Assembly (NCBI RefSeq): GCF_016806125.1
Contig: NZ_CP047166.1
Span: forward strand, 3,224,001-3,288,000
Reading direction: 5' to 3'
DNA from: Ponticoccus alexandrii
Lineage (GTDB): Bacteria; Pseudomonadota; Alphaproteobacteria; Rhodobacterales; Rhodobacteraceae
Length of the DNA stretch: 64,000 nucleotides
Shown in pieces: positions 38,597 to 46,443 of this stretch; the first letter of the stretch is position 1, and every line of letters starts with the position of its first letter. The notes beneath the pieces are model-generated. The model ran no database searches. It saw only the letters and a list, made by a program, of their open reading frames with translations, and was not told the origin of the DNA. The position numbers were made by a program, and so were the translations under genes.

Positions 38597-38812
38597 TGGA
38601 CCGCCGGAAGCTGGATTTTCCCGGCTGTCTCACGATGACGGGCTGGTGACGCCATCGGGATAATGCATGGCGATCGGGACGTTGTATCCGATCGCGCTGT
38701 GAGGTCGGTCCTCGTTGTCGTGTCTACGCCAATCTTCCAACTTTTCACGGGCGTCGGCAAGGCTCATGAACCAGTGGGCGTTCAGGCATTCTGACCGGAG
38801 CTTGCTGTTGAA

Positions 38813-38863
38813 CGTGAGGAGGGGTCTGCAAACAGTCCGGGGGACTGTTTGCCCCGACGCAAG
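38813..38863 (-). repeat. Palindromic insert E2 in IS3 orfB
   Basis: On the minus strand it reads left flank CTTGCGTCGGG, stem GCAAACAGTCC, loop CCC, stem GGACTGTTTGC (arms at 38842-38852 and 38828-38838), right flank ending CCCTCCTCAC. It sits between TTCAT and TTCAAC, replacing about 7 nt (expected codons for ESF). Flanks are the same as in E1 at 25776. Confidence 0.8.
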
Positions 38864-39276
38864 ATGAACCCGTTATCCGTCGGCTTTCCAGGCCGTGAGA
38901 AGTCCAGCGTGACGTCGTTGGCATAGGCCCATAGGTCCAGGTCACGCGAGATGAACTCGCTGCCATTATCGACCCGAATTGTCTTCGGGTAGCCGAGCCT
39001 GGCGCAGACCTTCTCCAGCGTTTGCACGACGTCCTCGCCCCGGTAGGTGAAGCGGGGATCGGCCGCCGGGCACAGCCGGGAATGGGTATCGACAACGGTC
39101 AGGATACGGAGCTTCTTGCCCATGGCCAGCTGGTCGTGGACGAAATCCATTGCCCAGACATCGTTCGGACCGACCGCCTCCTGGCGATCTTCCCGCAGCT
39201 TTGCCTTCACCCTGCGCTTCGGGTGCTTGTTGCGCAACTGGAGCCCCAACTCATTGTAAATCCTACGGGTCTTCTT

Positions 39277-39320
39277 CATCCCTCTCGGGACATTGCTTTG
39301 CAATGCTCTGTCGGGCAGCG
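39277..39320 (-). repeat. Palindromic insert E5 in IS3 orfB
   Basis: 44 nt replacing about 3 nt between ATCAAC and AAGAAGACC. Its core CATTGC (39291-39296) and GCAATG (39300-39305) pair around TTT; CTCGGG precedes the stem on the plus strand and GTCGGG follows. Net +41 nt breaks the reading frame. Confidence 0.6.
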
Positions 39321-39550
39321 GTTGATGATCCAGCCTTCTCGCCGAAGCAAGACATGCACACGGCGATAGCCATACCGCACGCGGGTCTCGCAGATCTCCC
39401 TGATCCGCCTTTCGACGGCAGCCTGGTGCGTCCGCCGGGACTTGTAGTGGTCGCTGGACGTGTCGAAGCTGATGGCTCCACAAGCCTTCCTTATCGACAC
39501 GCCCCAGTCGACGCACAACCCGGTCACGATCTCTCGCAGACGCCCAGGCT

Positions 39551-39853
39551 TCAGAGCTTTCGGCGGATCACCTCCGCTCGCCATTGTCCTCGGACCAATG
39601 GCGGACAATGGCTCGCCATCTCCCGATCCAGCGTCAGATCAGCCACGATCTTCTTCAGCCGGGTGTTCTCGTCCTCGAGCGCCTTCAACCGGCGCATCTC
39701 ATCCGGCAACAGCCCGCCATACTTCTTTTTCCAGTTGAAATAGGTCGCCTGGCTGATCCCCGCCTTGCGACATATCTCGGCGACAGGTGTTCCCTGCTCG
39801 CCCTGCTTCAGGATGAGCGGCTTCTGCGCCTCCGTGAACTTCGATGCCTTCAT
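39551..39853 (-). CDS. IS3 OrfA (HTH) with an in-frame palindromic insert near its end
   Basis: 100 residues from ATG 39853. MKASKFTEAQKPLILKQGEQ and VAEICRKAGISQATYFNWKK form the HTH_Tnp_1 domain; LKALEDENTRLKKIVADLTL is the leucine-zipper-like helix. The usual family ending DREMLQDVIRRKL is interrupted after DREM by about 15 foreign residues (ASHCPPLVRGQWRAE) encoded by the palindromic insert at 39572-39616, and then resumes VIRRKL. The frameshift window to OrfB is therefore altered. Confidence 0.8.
   Translation of the reverse strand: MKASKFTEAQKPLILKQGEQGTPVAEICRKAGISQATYFNWKKKYGGLLPDEMRRLKALEDENTRLKKIVADLTLDREMASHCPPLVRGQWRAEVIRRKL
39572..39616 (-). repeat. Palindromic insert E4 in IS3 orfA
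   Basis: 45 nt replacing about 9 nt after the DREM codons. GCCATTGTCC (39580-39589) pairs with GGACAATGGC (39603-39612), loop 13 nt, and the loop contains a further GGACCAATGGC. Net +36 nt keeps the frame and adds 12 residues. Confidence 0.65.
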
Positions 39854-39986
39854 GCGTTTCCACTCCTCTCCCAGCCAGGAAAGAGTAGCCGAAAACTCCA
39901 GCTTCAAACGGGCCAGTTTTCAGGGGCAGAGCACTGTTGGCGAAGAGGCTACATCACGGTGAGGGATTTCCAGGGGGGCAGATCAC

Positions 39987-40391
39987 GTGCCTTACCAAGT
40001 CCACACGACCCTGACCGACAACGGCATCCAGCTCGCTGAGCAACCACGGAATAGGAATACAGCCTATTCACGACCGATGCGCTTCGACATGATCTGCGAG
40101 GCAAACGGGATCGAGCACCGACTGACCAAACCCAACCATCCGTGGACCAACCCCCAGGTCGAGAGGATGAACCGCACCATCAAGGACGCAACGGTCAAGC
40201 GCTTCCACTACGACAGCCACGATCAGCTGCGCACACATCTCTCAGACGACATGGCAGCCTACAGTTTCGCCCGGCGTCTCAAGACCCTCGGTGGCCTCAC
40301 TCCATACGAATACATCTGCAAGGTCTGGATTTCAGAGCCGGATCGATTCATCCCAAATCCGATCCACCAGATGCCGGGATTGAACACCTAG
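39987..40391 (+). mobile_element. IS481-family transposase remnant B
   Basis: 134 C-terminal residues, from VPYQVHTTLTDNGIQLAEQP (catalytic D in TDNG) through HRLTKPNHPWTNPQVERMNR (catalytic E in VERMNR), HDQLRTHLSDDMAAYSFARR and LTPYEYICKVWISEPDRF to PIHQMPGLNT. The N-terminal HTH half is missing, cut by or next to the IS3 end. It lacks the inserts present in remnant A and so serves as the reference for them. Confidence 0.85.
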
Positions 40392-40523
40392 GCTGATGCG
40401 TGTGATTGTGTTCACCGAAGCTTCTGGCGGCAACCGGCTCGTCTGCAGGCAAAGTCACATAATCTCTAGGATGTAGTCGATTATTATGCGTAAACTTAAG
40501 CGTGTGCGATGCTGAGGTTTGCA

Positions 40524-41102
40524 ATGAAATCGACGACGTTCTTATCCTTGACCGCTTTCCTTGCGACAGGTTTTTTTCAGGCGGCATCTGCGGACGGTTA
40601 CTTTCTGCAAACCGACGTGGGCGGGCGCACGCAGTCCTTCGTGGCATCGACCAGCCGTGGCCCACTGTCCTTCGGGCTGAACCTGTCAAACTACGAGGGC
40701 GGTCGCAGCGGCGCCATCAGTGCAACCTATGCCTTCCCGGTCGAGGGCGTGGCGACCTTCAAGCTGGGGCCGACCGTCGGGTTCGAGCGCGACGATGATG
40801 GCAGGCGGGGCGCAGAAGCGGGCGCGCGGCTGGCGGTGGATCGCTGGACCGGCACGTCGTTCGGGTCGACCTACATCCTAGCCGAGGCGAGCACGGTCAA
40901 CCGCTCATGGTTTTTGCTCGGACAGGTGACCTTTACCGAGGCAAATATCGGGATCGAGCTGTCGCGCGGTGGCAGCGACGACTATCACGAAACCACGCTG
41001 GCCGTGCAGCGGCGACTTGGCGGCGGGCCGGTGAGCCTACGCCTCGGCTACAAGCTCAGTTCGGAAGAGCTGTTCGCCGGCTTCTCCATCAACACGTTCT
41101 GA
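40524..41102 (+). CDS. Small outer-membrane-type beta-barrel protein at the glucan locus
   Basis: 192 residues from ATG 40524 with GAGG eight bases ahead. Signal peptide MKSTTFLSLTAFLATGFFQA cut near ASA/DG. The mature protein alternates Gly/aromatic strands (SFGLNLSNYEGGRSGAISAT, FKLGPTVGFERDD, LRLGYKLSSEELFAGFSINT) and ends in a terminal F, the sign of an outer-membrane barrel. No family recognised. It is 6 nt ahead of the sensor gene and may form a barrel that helps export or anchor the glucan. Confidence 0.75.
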   Translation: MKSTTFLSLTAFLATGFFQAASADGYFLQTDVGGRTQSFVASTSRGPLSFGLNLSNYEGGRSGAISATYAFPVEGVATFKLGPTVGFERDDDGRRGAEAGARLAVDRWTGTSFGSTYILAEASTVNRSWFLLGQVTFTEANIGIELSRGGSDDYHETTLAVQRRLGGGPVSLRLGYKLSSEELFAGFSINTF

Positions 41103-41108
41103 GGCGCC

Positions 41109-42200
41109 ATGATTGAGCTTCCCCGCCTGACCCTACGCAATGCGGCCATCGCCTTTGGACTGGCAACGCTTGTCGTGATGCTGACCGTACTGTCGATTTT
41201 TGCGCTGCTGCGCAGCGATCGCTTCACCGACAGCACGTTGGATTATGCCACGCGCTTCCGTACCACCGCTGCCGCCGAGGATCTGGCCCGCACGCTGGAA
41301 CAGGACTGGCGCGACCTGCGGGCGCTGGCGCAACGGGTGCCCGAGCTAGAGCCGGAGCAGCTGGGCAATCTGCTGACAGGCGCCAGCGGAGACGGCACGC
41401 GGATTTCGTGGCTGGGCTATGCCGATCTCAGTGGCAACGTGGTGGCCGCAACGGACGGGCTGCTGGTGGGGCAGGATGTCAGTCAGCGCCCATGGTATCG
41501 GGGTGGGCTCTCCGGTGGCTTTGCGGGCGACGTGCATGACGCTGTGCTGTTGGCGAACCTTCTGGGCCACGAGGGGGACGAGCCGTTGCGGTTCATCGAC
41601 CTGGCGCTGCCCGTTGCTGATGATAGCGGCGATCCGGCCGGAGTTCTGGGCCTGCACATCAACGCCGCTTGGCTGACAGGGGAATTGCGCGAATCCGCGC
41701 GGATCTACGGGCTGGACTTTTACCTTTTGAACCCGGCCGCAGAGATCTCCGCCAGTTCGACCGAGGAAACGCCGACCGCCGGCGAGCTGCAGATCCTGCG
41801 CGCTGCACAGACTGGGATCGAGACTGGTGAGCGCGAGCGCTGGCCGGACGGGGGTGACTATTTCTCGTCGCTCATCCCGCAGGTGACCTATGGGGATCTG
41901 CCGAACTTCGGCTGGCGCATGGTTGGCCGACTGGAGGCGACCAAGTTGACAATCGGCATAGACCTGATCCGCAACGGCGCGCTGTGGGCGCTGCTAGCGA
42001 TGATCGCCGCCATCGGGCTTCTGACACTGCTCTTCGTCGGTGCGGTCGCTACCCCGATCCGTCGGCTGGCGGACTCGGCCGAGCGCATTTCGAACGGGTC
42101 GGAGGAATACCCGGCAAATTCACGCGTGACGCGAGAAGCGGCGCAGCTATCCTTGGCACTGACACGGCTTCAGCTGGACCGCATCAGCGACGACCGCTGA
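41109..42200 (+). CDS. Membrane sensor with Cache and HAMP-like parts but no output domain
   Basis: 363 residues. TM helix at about 14-35, a periplasmic dCache-like domain (36-290; GYADLSGNVVAATDGLLVGQ, VSQRPWYRGGLSGGFAGDVH are the Cache landmarks), a second TM near 293-315 and a HAMP-like tail (VATPIRRLADSAERISNGSE). It then ends RLQLDRISDDR, where a GGDEF, kinase or MCP domain would be expected. It overlaps the convergent synthase gene by 17 nt. It may act by protein contact on the glucan machinery. A truncated diguanylate cyclase is the alternative. Confidence 0.85.
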   Translation: MIELPRLTLRNAAIAFGLATLVVMLTVLSIFALLRSDRFTDSTLDYATRFRTTAAAEDLARTLEQDWRDLRALAQRVPELEPEQLGNLLTGASGDGTRISWLGYADLSGNVVAATDGLLVGQDVSQRPWYRGGLSGGFAGDVHDAVLLANLLGHEGDEPLRFIDLALPVADDSGDPAGVLGLHINAAWLTGELRESARIYGLDFYLLNPAAEISASSTEETPTAGELQILRAAQTGIETGERERWPDGGDYFSSLIPQVTYGDLPNFGWRMVGRLEATKLTIGIDLIRNGALWALLAMIAAIGLLTLLFVGAVATPIRRLADSAERISNGSEEYPANSRVTREAAQLSLALTRLQLDRISDDR

Positions 42201-44163
42201 ACGACAGGCGCCGGCCCAGCCCGGCCAACAGCCCGCCCAGTTGTGAGCGGGCGGTGCCCGGTGCCGCTCCCTCGGCATAGAAGCGGACCAGCAGCGCCTC
42301 GCGCTGCTCGGTCGTGGGCATCAGGCGCACACGCAAACCGTCGACGGTGCGGGCGATCACCTCGACGGAGATGTCGCCCACGTCGCGCACTCGCAGTGTC
42401 CCAGCAGTGCCCTCGGACAGCACCAGGCCGCGCAGCCGCGCCTGGTCGATGGTCAACGAACGGATCCAGTAGCGGCGGATGTTGCCGTCAGTCACCAGGA
42501 TGCCCCGGTCCGGCAGGTCGGCGATGTGTCGCTCCCGCCGGGGCAGCTCGACACAGGCAAGGACTGTCATCGACAGCACGAAAAGATTGTAGATCGTCCA
42601 GAACAGAACCACCCACTTGCCGTCGCCCGCGTCCTGATACGAGAAGCGGTCGAAGAGGATCCCCAGAAGCAGCCCCACCAGCGTCAGCACCAGAAGGATC
42701 ACGAACGGCATCATCAACTGCCATTGCACGGTGATCTTCGTGCGATCGCCACCCTTGGCCGTGACCGAGAATGGATGCCCCTTGGGCTTGAACAGCCCGG
42801 TGAACGCGGCGCGGCTGATCGGGATGGCCCCGATCAATTGGCCGACATCGTGCAGGATCGGCACCACCATCCCCGGCATCAGCACCCGCTGCACCATCTG
42901 TCCCCAAAGGAAAAAGACCCCGAAGATGCTCAGCACGTCAGCGAGCTGTGCATCCACGACGATGGTGCCGAAATACCAGTAGAGCAGCGGGAAGACGACC
43001 ACCGCGATCCGGAAGGGAAAGCTGGTCGTCCAGAAGAGGACCGAGTCGACGACGCTCCAGCGGTCACGCAGGCGCAGGTTGTTCCGAGCAAGCGGCCCGA
43101 GGCGCGAGCGGGCGATCTGCATCAGCCCAAGGCACCAGCGAGCGCGCTGCGTGACGTATTCCTTCAGCCCTTCTGGGGCCAGCCCCTCGGTCAGTGGTTC
43201 CGACAAGTAGACCGTTGCCCATCCCTTGTCCTGAAGGTCCAGCGTCAGCATGAAGTCTTCGGTCACGCTTTCCGTAGGCAGTCCGCCGATGTCGCGCAGG
43301 GCGCTCCAGCGGCAGACCGAGGACGTGCCGCAGCAAAAGGCGATTCCCCAACCATCGCGCGAAGGCTGCATATGATCGAAGAAGAACCGCTGCTCGTCAG
43401 GATAGGACTGGCTGATCCCGAGGTTATGCTGGATCGGGTCTGCGTTGAAGAAATGCTGCGGCGTCTGCACCAGCCCCACCCGGGGGTCGTGAAACAGCGC
43501 TAGACTGCGCGAGATGAAGCCGCGATGCGGCACGAAATCGGCATCCAGCACGGCCACGAAATCGGGCGGCACCGGATCCTCGGCCAGCCGGTCAAGGCAA
43601 TGATTGATGTTACCTGCCTTCGAGCCCTTGTTGTCCGGCCGACGCATGTAGCGCACGCCCTGACTTGCGCAGTAGTCCCGCAACCAGTCACGGCGGCTGT
43701 CGTCCAGGATCAGCACCTCCTTGTTGCGGTGTCGCAAGGCGCGCGCGCCGACGATGGTGCGTTCCAGGACGTCCAGTTCCTCGTTATAGGTCGCGATCAG
43801 GATGGCGACGCGTGGCTCATCCTCGCCCCACCAGCCGGCATGCTCGTCCGCCTCGTCGGACCGCAGCTTCAGGCGCGACATGATGATGTAAGAGCTGACT
43901 GTACCGATCATGGCAAGCAGCTCGAACCCGAACAACGCATAGCTTGCCAGCATGTCGAGCGTCAGTCCCGGCGGTGCCAGCGTATCGGTTCCCCGCCACC
44001 AGATGTAGCGCATGGCCAACAGGAAGGTGGCGCTCAACAGGATCGCCCGGTGCAGGTTGTTGCGGATGTCGACCCAATAGGGCAGCGTCATCCCGACCCC
44101 GAGCGCCAGCAGCAGATGGACCGTGCTGGACCCGAGCGGGGACAGAAGCGGGAAATCCAGCAT
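42184..44163 (-). CDS. Processive GT2 beta-glucan synthase, BgsA/BcsA-like
   Basis: 659 residues. N-terminal TM helices, then the GT2 core: RVAILIATYNEELDVLERTI, KAGNINHCL, VLDADFVPHRG (DxD), SVTEDFMLTLDLQ (TED) and QRARWCLGLMQI (Q/RxxRW), then further TM helices and a C-terminal soluble part. The RxxxR and D/NxSxxG motifs of a PilZ domain are not convincing (PRRERHIADL, TIDQARLRGLVL), which resembles BgsA of Sinorhizobium, a c-di-GMP-responsive mixed-linkage beta-glucan synthase without a PilZ domain. Bacterial cellulose synthase is the alternative. Start ATG overlaps the stop of the adaptor gene by ATGA. Confidence 0.88.
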   Translation of the reverse strand: MLDFPLLSPLGSSTVHLLLALGVGMTLPYWVDIRNNLHRAILLSATFLLAMRYIWWRGTDTLAPPGLTLDMLASYALFGFELLAMIGTVSSYIIMSRLKLRSDEADEHAGWWGEDEPRVAILIATYNEELDVLERTIVGARALRHRNKEVLILDDSRRDWLRDYCASQGVRYMRRPDNKGSKAGNINHCLDRLAEDPVPPDFVAVLDADFVPHRGFISRSLALFHDPRVGLVQTPQHFFNADPIQHNLGISQSYPDEQRFFFDHMQPSRDGWGIAFCCGTSSVCRWSALRDIGGLPTESVTEDFMLTLDLQDKGWATVYLSEPLTEGLAPEGLKEYVTQRARWCLGLMQIARSRLGPLARNNLRLRDRWSVVDSVLFWTTSFPFRIAVVVFPLLYWYFGTIVVDAQLADVLSIFGVFFLWGQMVQRVLMPGMVVPILHDVGQLIGAIPISRAAFTGLFKPKGHPFSVTAKGGDRTKITVQWQLMMPFVILLVLTLVGLLLGILFDRFSYQDAGDGKWVVLFWTIYNLFVLSMTVLACVELPRRERHIADLPDRGILVTDGNIRRYWIRSLTIDQARLRGLVLSEGTAGTLRVRDVGDISVEVIARTVDGLRVRLMPTTEQREALLVRFYAEGAAPGTARSQLGGLLAGLGRRLSFSGRR

Positions 44164-45338
44164 CAGGGCATCAGCCGGCGCAACCCGTCCAACGGCCGTC
44201 CGTCGAAGAAGGCACGGCCGGTTCGGCCGATCATGCAACCCTCGCCCCCCAGCTGCGCAAGTGCGGGCACGATCAGGGCGACATCGTAACGTTCCAGATG
44301 CCGCTGGCTGGGCGCTACGGCCAGGTTGCGATAAATTGTTTCGGCCCCGCTGCCCGCCAGCCGCGCCACGGTCGCGTCATAGACAGTAGACGCGCCGCCA
44401 AGCCGGAAGCGCGCGGCATCCCCGACGGCCAGCGAGTTGTAGACCCGCTCGGTCACCGAGGCGGTCACCATCGTCGCACCGCAATCGACCAAGCGCAGCA
44501 GGGGATCGCCACGCTGGACGTTGACGCCATCGGCCTGCAGCACCTCCCACAGAAGGCCGGAAACGGGGGACTGCATCTCGCCACCGGTCAGGCCGTTGAC
44601 ACGCAGCCGCTCGCGGTCGGTGCGTTCGCGGACAGCTGCAACACGCTCCTGCGCCTCGGTCAGGCGGGTCTGGAGGGCGGCGATCTCGCTTGCGAGCTCG
44701 GTCGCGCGCTGCTCGGCACTAGGGGAATCGTTGTAGCCGTCGCCGAGAAACACGTTCTCCTGTGCCGCCCGGAGCGCGATCTGCAAGACAGCGACCCGTT
44801 CGCGGGCATGATCCAGAACCAGCGCATCCAGTCGAGGCTCGCCCGGCAGCCGCTCGGCCCCCTCCTCCACCGTGTCCAGAAGCTGCTGCTGCGCATCGCC
44901 CATCGACGCGCCACCGGCTTCCAGGATCGACAGCCGCGTTTCGGCATGGGACAGCCGGGCGCGCAGCTCTTCCAGTCGGCGCTGACGGAAGATCTCCGTG
45001 CGCTGCAGCAAGGCCTCTCGGGTGGCATCCGTCTCGGCGAGCAGTGTCTCGATCTGGACGCGCATCGCCTCTTCCAAGCGCGCCTCCATCAGAAGATCGT
45101 CCAGGCGGACGCGGTCTACGAGCGGGTCCTCAATGCTGGCGATGACCTCGCCTTCCGTCACCCGCGCACCCAGTCGGCGGGCCGGAACGGACAGGTTTCC
45201 GGCCACGGTCGCCCGCACTGTCACCACCGGCGCGTTGACGACCGCATCCGCGCTGGCGCCCGACATCTGCTCGCCCACGATGATCCACAGGGCGACGACG
45301 ATGGCCAGCAGGCCCAGGATCAGTCTTCCGTATTTCAT
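44163..45338 (-). CDS. HlyD-like periplasmic adaptor, BgsB-like
   Basis: 391 residues. One N-terminal TM helix (6-24), a biotinyl-lipoyl-like half (VTVRATVAGNLSVPARRLGA and VTEGEVIASIEDPL), a long coiled coil from about 85 to 245 (ERVAVLQIALRAAQENVFLG; LASEIAALQTRLTEAQERVA), the second lipoyl half (MQSPVSGLLWEVLQADGVNV) and a beta-barrel end. It should bridge the synthase to the periplasm for polymer export. In bgs loci this gene partners bgsA, as here with a 1-nt overlap. Confidence 0.87.
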   Translation of the reverse strand: MKYGRLILGLLAIVVALWIIVGEQMSGASADAVVNAPVVTVRATVAGNLSVPARRLGARVTEGEVIASIEDPLVDRVRLDDLLMEARLEEAMRVQIETLLAETDATREALLQRTEIFRQRRLEELRARLSHAETRLSILEAGGASMGDAQQQLLDTVEEGAERLPGEPRLDALVLDHARERVAVLQIALRAAQENVFLGDGYNDSPSAEQRATELASEIAALQTRLTEAQERVAAVRERTDRERLRVNGLTGGEMQSPVSGLLWEVLQADGVNVQRGDPLLRLVDCGATMVTASVTERVYNSLAVGDAARFRLGGASTVYDATVARLAGSGAETIYRNLAVAPSQRHLERYDVALIVPALAQLGGEGCMIGRTGRAFFDGRPLDGLRRLMP

Positions 45339-45444
45339 CCGCTGCGGCTCCGCTTAAATGCAATCCAACTCAACTTAAAGCTGATGACTAGGAATACCAC
45401 ATGGTTTCCGCATCCTATTGTTCCGAATTGCCTTCGGTCGTGAC

Positions 45445-46443
45445 CTAGCGCCCACAGCCCCCTTCCCGCCACGCCGTCCGCGCGAGCAACAACAACGTAT
45501 CCGGATAGTAGCTGCGACCTTCCGCCGGCCAGTCAGGCAAGGTCTGGCACGCGGCAAGCCGCCTTAGGGCGAGGAAGCCGGGATGATCGCTCTCCGCCTC
45601 GGGGGTGCCCTCCGCGCTGCGCTGAACGACCACCCGTCCGGGCGCGGACTGCAGCAGGCGCAGCCCTGCGGCAAGGGCAGGATGGGAATAGTTGCCGGAC
45701 CAAGCCAGATACAGCGGCACGCGCAGGGCGTCATAGCCCCAGCCCGGCCGAAGATCCGGCGGCGCGGCAAAGCCGTCCTGGGTGACGTCGACCCAGTCCC
45801 ACAGCCGATCCGCTGCCGCCAGCTCGGCCAGCAGCGTCTCGCCATGATCGGCAGCGCGGATCAGCTGCGGCTCTCCCGCCGCCTCGCCCAACTCGCGAAG
45901 GGCGCGGGGCATGATGTAGGAGGGGTTGAACAGCACCCGATCGGCACGGCGCCGCGCCTCGGCCCCGGGCGTCAGCAGCGCCTCGGACGGGGCGCGCGGG
46001 TCAGGCGCAAGGCAGAGCGAGGCAATGTCCCGGGCAATGGCAACCGCCGTCTCGGCATGATCCGCCCAGCCAGAGTCGCGTCCAGCGCGCAGCAGAGCCC
46101 AAGCCCGGAAAATGTCGCCATCCGTAGCGTTGCGCCAGTCGATCCGGCCATCGGCGGGCTGCCGGCTCCAACCCATCAGCCGGTCCTCCCGCACGGCTAG
46201 ATGCGCAGCCGTCCAAGCCTCGATCTGCTCGAATGCGTCCCGCTCGCCAGCGGCCTGCGCCAAAAGAAGGCCCCAGCCCTGTCCCTCGGAATGGCTGATC
46301 CCGTTCTGCTGCCAGTCGATCACCTGACCATCGCGCAGATATGTCGCGGCCCAAGTCCGAAAGTCAGGCGCTGCGGCTCGAGCTGAAGCAGCTCTCACCA
46401 CAAACCCGCAGAACATGAGCCTAAAGAAGAGTCGTCGCTGCAT
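45445..46443 (-). CDS. Glycoside hydrolase family 8 endoglucanase (BcsZ-like)
   Basis: 332 residues with an N-terminal signal (MQRRLFFRLMFCGFVVRAAS; a twin-Arg start RRLFF is notable). GH8 motifs: ISHSEGQGWGLLLAQAAGER with the catalytic acid Glu near residue 53, WRNATDGDIFRAWALLRAGR with the DxD-type aspartates, and PSYIMPRALRELGEAAGE. It trims beta-1,4 bonds of cellulose or mixed glucan in the periplasm and usually accompanies a synthase. It lies 106 nt upstream of the adaptor gene in the same direction. Confidence 0.9.
   Translation of the reverse strand: MQRRLFFRLMFCGFVVRAASARAAAPDFRTWAATYLRDGQVIDWQQNGISHSEGQGWGLLLAQAAGERDAFEQIEAWTAAHLAVREDRLMGWSRQPADGRIDWRNATDGDIFRAWALLRAGRDSGWADHAETAVAIARDIASLCLAPDPRAPSEALLTPGAEARRRADRVLFNPSYIMPRALRELGEAAGEPQLIRAADHGETLLAELAAADRLWDWVDVTQDGFAAPPDLRPGWGYDALRVPLYLAWSGNYSHPALAAGLRLLQSAPGRVVVQRSAEGTPEAESDHPGFLALRRLAACQTLPDWPAEGRSYYPDTLLLLARTAWREGGCGR

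Follow-up and report, generated by a model that had tools for sequence, protein, structure and literature searches.

An output-less Cache-HAMP sensor as conserved partner of a putative alphaproteobacterial glucan synthase with a predicted PilZ-fold tail lacking c-di-GMP motifs

The genes of an HlyD-like adaptor, a putative GT2 beta-glucan synthase and a Cache-HAMP sensor form a conserved alphaproteobacterial unit, in which sensor and synthase co-occur far beyond chance and lie side by side in about a hundred relatives. The synthesis of bacterial cellulose and related glucans is the standard example of allosteric regulation by c-di-GMP. For the unit described here, the sequence comparisons leave the chances about even that the synthase is gated through contact with a ligand-sensing Cache-HAMP subunit, following the loss of c-di-GMP control. 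If true, the second-messenger link would have been replaced by direct wiring, with the PilZ fold kept, its binding sites lost and a dedicated transmembrane sensor gained, and a possible role of HAMP proteins without output would be explained.

The locus lies in a window of 64,000 nucleotides from Ponticoccus alexandrii (contig NZ_CP047166.1). The five genes described in the original prediction were all confirmed as reading frames at their coordinates, and family searches supported every assignment:

40524..41102, plus strand: small outer-membrane beta-barrel, 192 aa, 12 strands, with signal peptide and C-terminal NTF, only distantly BcsS-like (alternative start at 40509)
41109..42200, plus strand: Cache-HAMP membrane sensor without output domain, 363 aa, with dCache_1 and HAMP matches; layout from hydrophobic segments TM1 ~13-37, periplasmic dCache ~38-283, TM2 ~286-308, HAMP 309-355, then stop
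42184..42200: convergent 17-bp overlap of the 3' ends of the synthase and sensor genes
42184..44163, minus strand: putative GT2 beta-glucan synthase, 659 aa, C-tail 540-659 with a predicted PilZ fold without c-di-GMP motifs
44163..45338, minus strand: HlyD-like periplasmic adaptor, 391 aa, its stop overlapping the synthase start (TGATG)
45445..46443, minus strand: GH8 glucanase, BcsZ-like, first gene of the synthase operon

On the minus strand, the GH8, HlyD-like and synthase genes form a single operon in this order, with the HlyD-like partner gene directly upstream of the synthase, and the plus-strand barrel and Cache-HAMP genes run tail-to-tail toward it. Searches against Pfam and NCBIfam returned GH8 (1.8e-29; BcsZ-like), HlyD_3 (4.9e-11), and dCache_1 (1.1e-08) and HAMP (7e-04) on the 363-aa protein. 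The synthase matched GT2 and CelA (1.2e-107), but with 360.8 bits it did not reach the curated BcsA score of 699.1 bits (TIGR03030). The closest named relatives of the locus are Paracoccus species (88% in the synthase), and the same 17-bp convergent overlap occurs in Paracoccus loci and in locus L015. Remnants of IS transposases (integrase-core matches at 38780-40391) are located directly upstream of the barrel gene, placing the module in an IS-rich stretch.

Synthases of the window type were detected in 11 of the 196 genomes of an order sample (57-100% identity), where further homologues fall to 39% identity or less and are mostly BcsA-sized. The Cache-HAMP gene adjoins the synthase in all 11 genomes (Fisher 3e-18, a figure that ignores kinship) and in 77 of the 80 loci of named species that were fetched by the synthase; wide co-occurrence of the genes, which the original prediction had put forward as a check, is supported. 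Adjacency was recorded in 45 of 48 loci of the Rhodobacterales, 26 of 26 of the Hyphomicrobiales, 3 of 3 of the Acetobacterales, the single locus of the Rhodospirillales and both unplaced loci. In a further order, the sensor accompanied all 11 strong synthase matches and neither of two weak ones. The sensor gene is oriented opposite to the synthase in most loci. In Bradyrhizobium, Microvirga and Bosea it follows the synthase downstream in the same direction, and in the Roseomonas group it is found upstream of the HlyD gene. Since the gene arrangement varies to this extent, the proximity of sensor and synthase has been kept through rearrangement.

Three of the 80 loci are exceptions: in a Salipiger the sensor lies elsewhere in the genome, and the other two species, which form one group in the tree, are without any sensor. 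The Salipiger mangrovisoli protein, an output-less sensor of the linked type with 362 aa (L209, 8876-9904), is encoded on a different contig from the synthase, and no other module genes were found within 19 kb of it. In the two sensor-less species the HlyD protein lacks its central part, a helical hairpin of approximately residues 75-226 (L099, 6330-6992; L121, 6094-6993); a short HlyD was also observed in some sensor-bearing species (L120, L123, L124). One genome without a synthase match contains sensor and barrel only as broken remnants (L024, 9133-10331), as if the whole module had decayed together. A plasmid of Bradyrhizobium barranii encodes an output-less sensor homologue of 344 aa (L201, 5764-6798) with no synthase within 12.8 kb.

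The barrel gene is present in 34 of 48 Rhodobacterales loci and in 1 of 26 Hyphomicrobiales loci. Because it and GH8 are mainly Rhodobacterales additions, HlyD, synthase and sensor constitute the conserved core. An HlyD-synthase-Cache trio (L051; ATU_RS24390/24385/24380) also resides on the At plasmid pAtC58 of Agrobacterium fabrum C58, with no annotation beyond cellulose synthase catalytic subunit and cache domain protein, and with a sensor histidine kinase alongside. Owing to this plasmid copy, the question of sensor control is directly testable in A. fabrum C58.

In the window sensor, a periplasmic dCache domain between two TM helices is followed by HAMP, and the protein ends 8-9 residues after the HAMP match. 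Among 15 relatives, dCache_1 was matched in all and HAMP in seven, the window copy scoring under the curated cut-offs for both. No GGDEF domain follows HAMP in the window sensor or in any linked copy and, as originally described for the window protein, an output domain is absent in every linked locus examined, with 0-50 residues after HAMP in the classified set. The closest unlinked homologues mostly carry GGDEF or histidine-kinase domains. They share with the linked sensors a homologous Cache, TM2 and HAMP as well as motifs such as GDVHxAxLLA and PLRFxD, but the linked sensors are without GGDEF and form a separate clade: the 23 closest unlinked rows grouped as one clade (99) apart from them, and the linked part of the sensor tree repeats the branching order of the synthase tree. 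GGDEF-bearing homologues, which the original prediction had named as evidence against its reading, thus exist, but the sensor is not simply a shortened version of them. Since it is output-less across orders and belongs to a separate clade, its form is old and fixed, and a locally truncated cyclase was ruled out. The Cache part evolves fast (mean distance 0.71). One unlinked homologue (L157, 1315-2412) has a frame that also ends at HAMP, perhaps through a frameshift in a cyclase or its independent shortening.

The synthase carries the motif set of processive GT2 enzymes (D, DxD, TED, QxxRW and a gating loop FxVTxK), seen here as DAD207, TED301, QRARW339 and the gating loop FSVTAK465. Its AlphaFold2 model (pLDDT 86; tail blocks mostly 82-92) aligns to BcsA over residues 8-655, PilZ included, with Z 30-35 and TM 0.8-0.85, the best match reaching Z 34.6 over 618 residues. 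Together with the GH8 protein, which resembles BcsZ, this fold is shared with BcsA-BcsB systems that include BcsZ, but the synthase is at most 33% identical to Rhodobacterales BcsA and scores under the CelA cut-off, the PilZ motifs are lost, and HlyD instead of BcsB is found among the five genes. The bgsBA locus of Sinorhizobium meliloti is similar in combining an HlyD-like protein with a GT2 synthase of ~660 aa that has a short C-tail without PilZ motifs. Its synthase nevertheless belongs to another branch (~36% identity or less), far outside the sensor-linked clade (L198, L197), and the bgs locus L198 is without a Cache gene. Loci L056 and L211, which judging by gene order probably encode the curdlan synthase CrdS, likewise have a GT2 synthase of similar size and an upstream HlyD-like gene, but differ by ~36% identity to the window synthase, the lack of a Cache neighbour and a different tail. 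In the synthase tree these probable CrdS proteins form a long branch outside the sensor-linked clade.

The view of the synthase as lacking a clear PilZ domain holds at the sequence level, where Pfam PilZ was not matched on the window synthase and in only 2 of 15 relatives, but not for the predicted structure: the modelled tail has six strands (552-615) and a helix (618-629) at the position of the BcsA PilZ domain. According to the model, the tail is a PilZ fold without binding motifs, as RxxxR and (D/N)xSxxG are absent and the window has PRR---ERHIAD and RSLTIDQARL instead. Aligned tails fell into three states. In most sister synthases that lack the sensor, RxxxR and DxSxxG are intact. The Azospirillum type combines the sensor with both motifs (14 of 14 rows). 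All other sensor-linked synthases, the window copy included, have lost both (91 of 91 rows). These states need two changes on the careful tree, which is the minimum, and the sensor-linked synthases form a clade (87/90 in the careful tree, 99 in the quick tree). The simplest history compatible with these trees would be a single gain of the sensor, followed by a single loss of the c-di-GMP motifs.

Decay of the altered tail is contradicted by a new conserved signature consisting of W566 (91/91) and the nearly invariant R576, R578 and G579. Motif loss alone proves nothing, however, because BgsA and the probable curdlan synthases (L056, L211) have lost the motifs without having a sensor. Even without PilZ motifs, BgsA binds c-di-GMP (0.23 uM; PMC5567048). 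The residues that serve it for this, R599 and H615 (numbering verified against 11 published positions), fall in an insertion that is gapped in 91 of 91 sensor-linked rows outside the Azospirillum type. The classification of the locus as bgs-like, with a synthase as in BgsA, therefore had to be abandoned, and orthology to BgsA was ruled out by both the synthase tree and these missing residues. Six GGDEF genes but a single recognised PilZ gene (a 122-aa frame) are present in the genome of P. alexandrii, so that c-di-GMP is available in the organism and standard receptors of the PilZ type are few.

Covariation between sensor and synthase parts was assessed by partial correlations of pairwise distances from 77 loci, controlling for the synthase core and for the remaining half of the sensor. 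In these matrices, whose rows are related sequences, HAMP distances correlate with those of the PilZ tail (0.28) and of the gating-loop segment 441-525 (0.33). Cache distances correlate with those of HlyD (0.45) and, weakly, of the N-terminal synthase segment. Across the same 77 loci, HAMP covaried neither with the catalytic segments nor with the N-terminal 110 residues, which are equally variable, and Cache did not covary with the synthase tail. The pattern persists without the Azospirillum-type rows and in the subset of loci near the window. It would fit a complex in which periplasmic parts face each other and cytoplasmic parts do likewise. Local recombination tracts could mimic the HAMP-tail signal because the respective codons are neighbours on the DNA in convergent loci; the Cache-HlyD covariation is not explained by DNA adjacency.

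Taken together, the evolutionary pattern and the covariation favour the view that the sensor acts directly on the synthase, as the original prediction had proposed. In the corresponding model, HlyD adaptor, GT2 synthase and Cache-HAMP protein would together make up a single synthase unit in the inner membrane. Its periplasmic Cache domain would sense a small molecule outside the cell, the state of the adaptor or that of the growing glucan. The enzyme-less HAMP domain would transmit the change to the PilZ-like tail and the gating loop by touching them, thereby switching glucan synthesis. The data show the linkage, the conserved lack of output, the clade apart from GGDEF-bearing homologues, the PilZ fold with its lost motifs and the sequence of events on the tree, and we infer from them the contact, the ligand, the control direction and the polymer. 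The sensor shares ancestry with Cache-HAMP diguanylate cyclases and, after it had joined the synthase, the c-di-GMP motifs would have been lost in all lineages except the Azospirillum type. GH8 and the barrel may be Rhodobacterales accessories for chain trimming and export. The complete scenario, a ligand-gated synthase in which a cyclase-related periplasmic receptor, minus its cyclase, has replaced c-di-GMP and acts through contact between HAMP and the PilZ fold without a second messenger, is plausible but somewhat short of an even chance. If it is correct, the Azospirillum-type loci, which combine the sensor with an intact PilZ domain, would be a living intermediate.

Several observations count against gating by contact. 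Two related species have the synthase but no sensor. The motifs are also lost in sensor-less synthases, namely BgsA, where different residues still bind c-di-GMP, and the CrdS-like L056 and L211. With six GGDEF genes in the genome, c-di-GMP could still act. The synthase may continue to answer c-di-GMP at a non-canonical site in its tail, in a BgsA-like manner, with the Cache protein being only a second input or an assembly factor. The precedent of BgsA, the retained PilZ fold and the six GGDEF genes of the genome agree with this reading, which we regard as unlikely while taking it seriously, since the insertion with R599 and H615 is missing throughout the 91 rows and the conserved tail positions are new ones.

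The Cache protein could also have a structural role instead of acting as a switch, as a BcsB-like anchor in the periplasm that directs the glucan from the synthase towards HlyD. Its inheritance, almost as strict as that of HlyD, its covariation with HlyD above anything else and the lack of BcsB among the five genes would fit such a role; the HAMP domain kept at the end of the protein would be superfluous for a mere anchor, HlyD accompanies the sister synthases (BgsA type, L055, L057) without a Cache partner, and the Cache part evolves as fast as is usual for ligand sensors, which together make this function rather improbable. HAMP proteins can dimerise, and an indirect route, in which the sensor would signal via a different protein such as a Cache-HAMP diguanylate cyclase or kinase with which it pairs in the same cell, would be in keeping with the closest homologues being Cache-HAMP-GGDEF and kinase proteins and with a second, weaker homologous match in the same genome (an 828-aa frame). 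As the linkage maintained through rearrangements is to the synthase and not to a cyclase, we consider this route very improbable. The existence of GGDEF-bearing homologues is all that speaks for a truncated diguanylate cyclase left over in an incidental neighbourhood; with every linked copy output-less in four orders and the Azospirillum type, and all of them in one separate, co-inherited lineage, this origin is hardly conceivable.

Contact gating of the synthase by the sensor would be a regulatory arrangement that appears new for an enzyme of a kind already known. A literature search conducted largely outside subscription journals found no output-less Cache or HAMP protein tied to a glucan synthase, and the accessible parts of Agrobacterium polysaccharide and Rhizobium etli glucan papers contain no mention of the locus. 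RprR of Ralstonia was rejected as a precedent, as it carries GGDEF and EAL domains.

The barrel of the window locus has a signal peptide, the C-terminal outer-membrane signal ...NTF and a confident 12-strand AlphaFold2 model (pLDDT 92), for which Foldseek retrieved only general 12-strand porin types (KdgM/NanC-type; best TM 0.52). It resembles BcsS (CBP_BcsS, PF17036), an alphaproteobacterial cellulose-locus protein, in being a small outer-membrane barrel of a glucan locus with sub-threshold similarity, but its identity as BcsS was rejected with a score of 13.7 bits against a cut-off of 24 and any match at all in only 3 of 37 relatives. For the polymer, the presence of GH8 suggests a product with beta-1,4 bonds.
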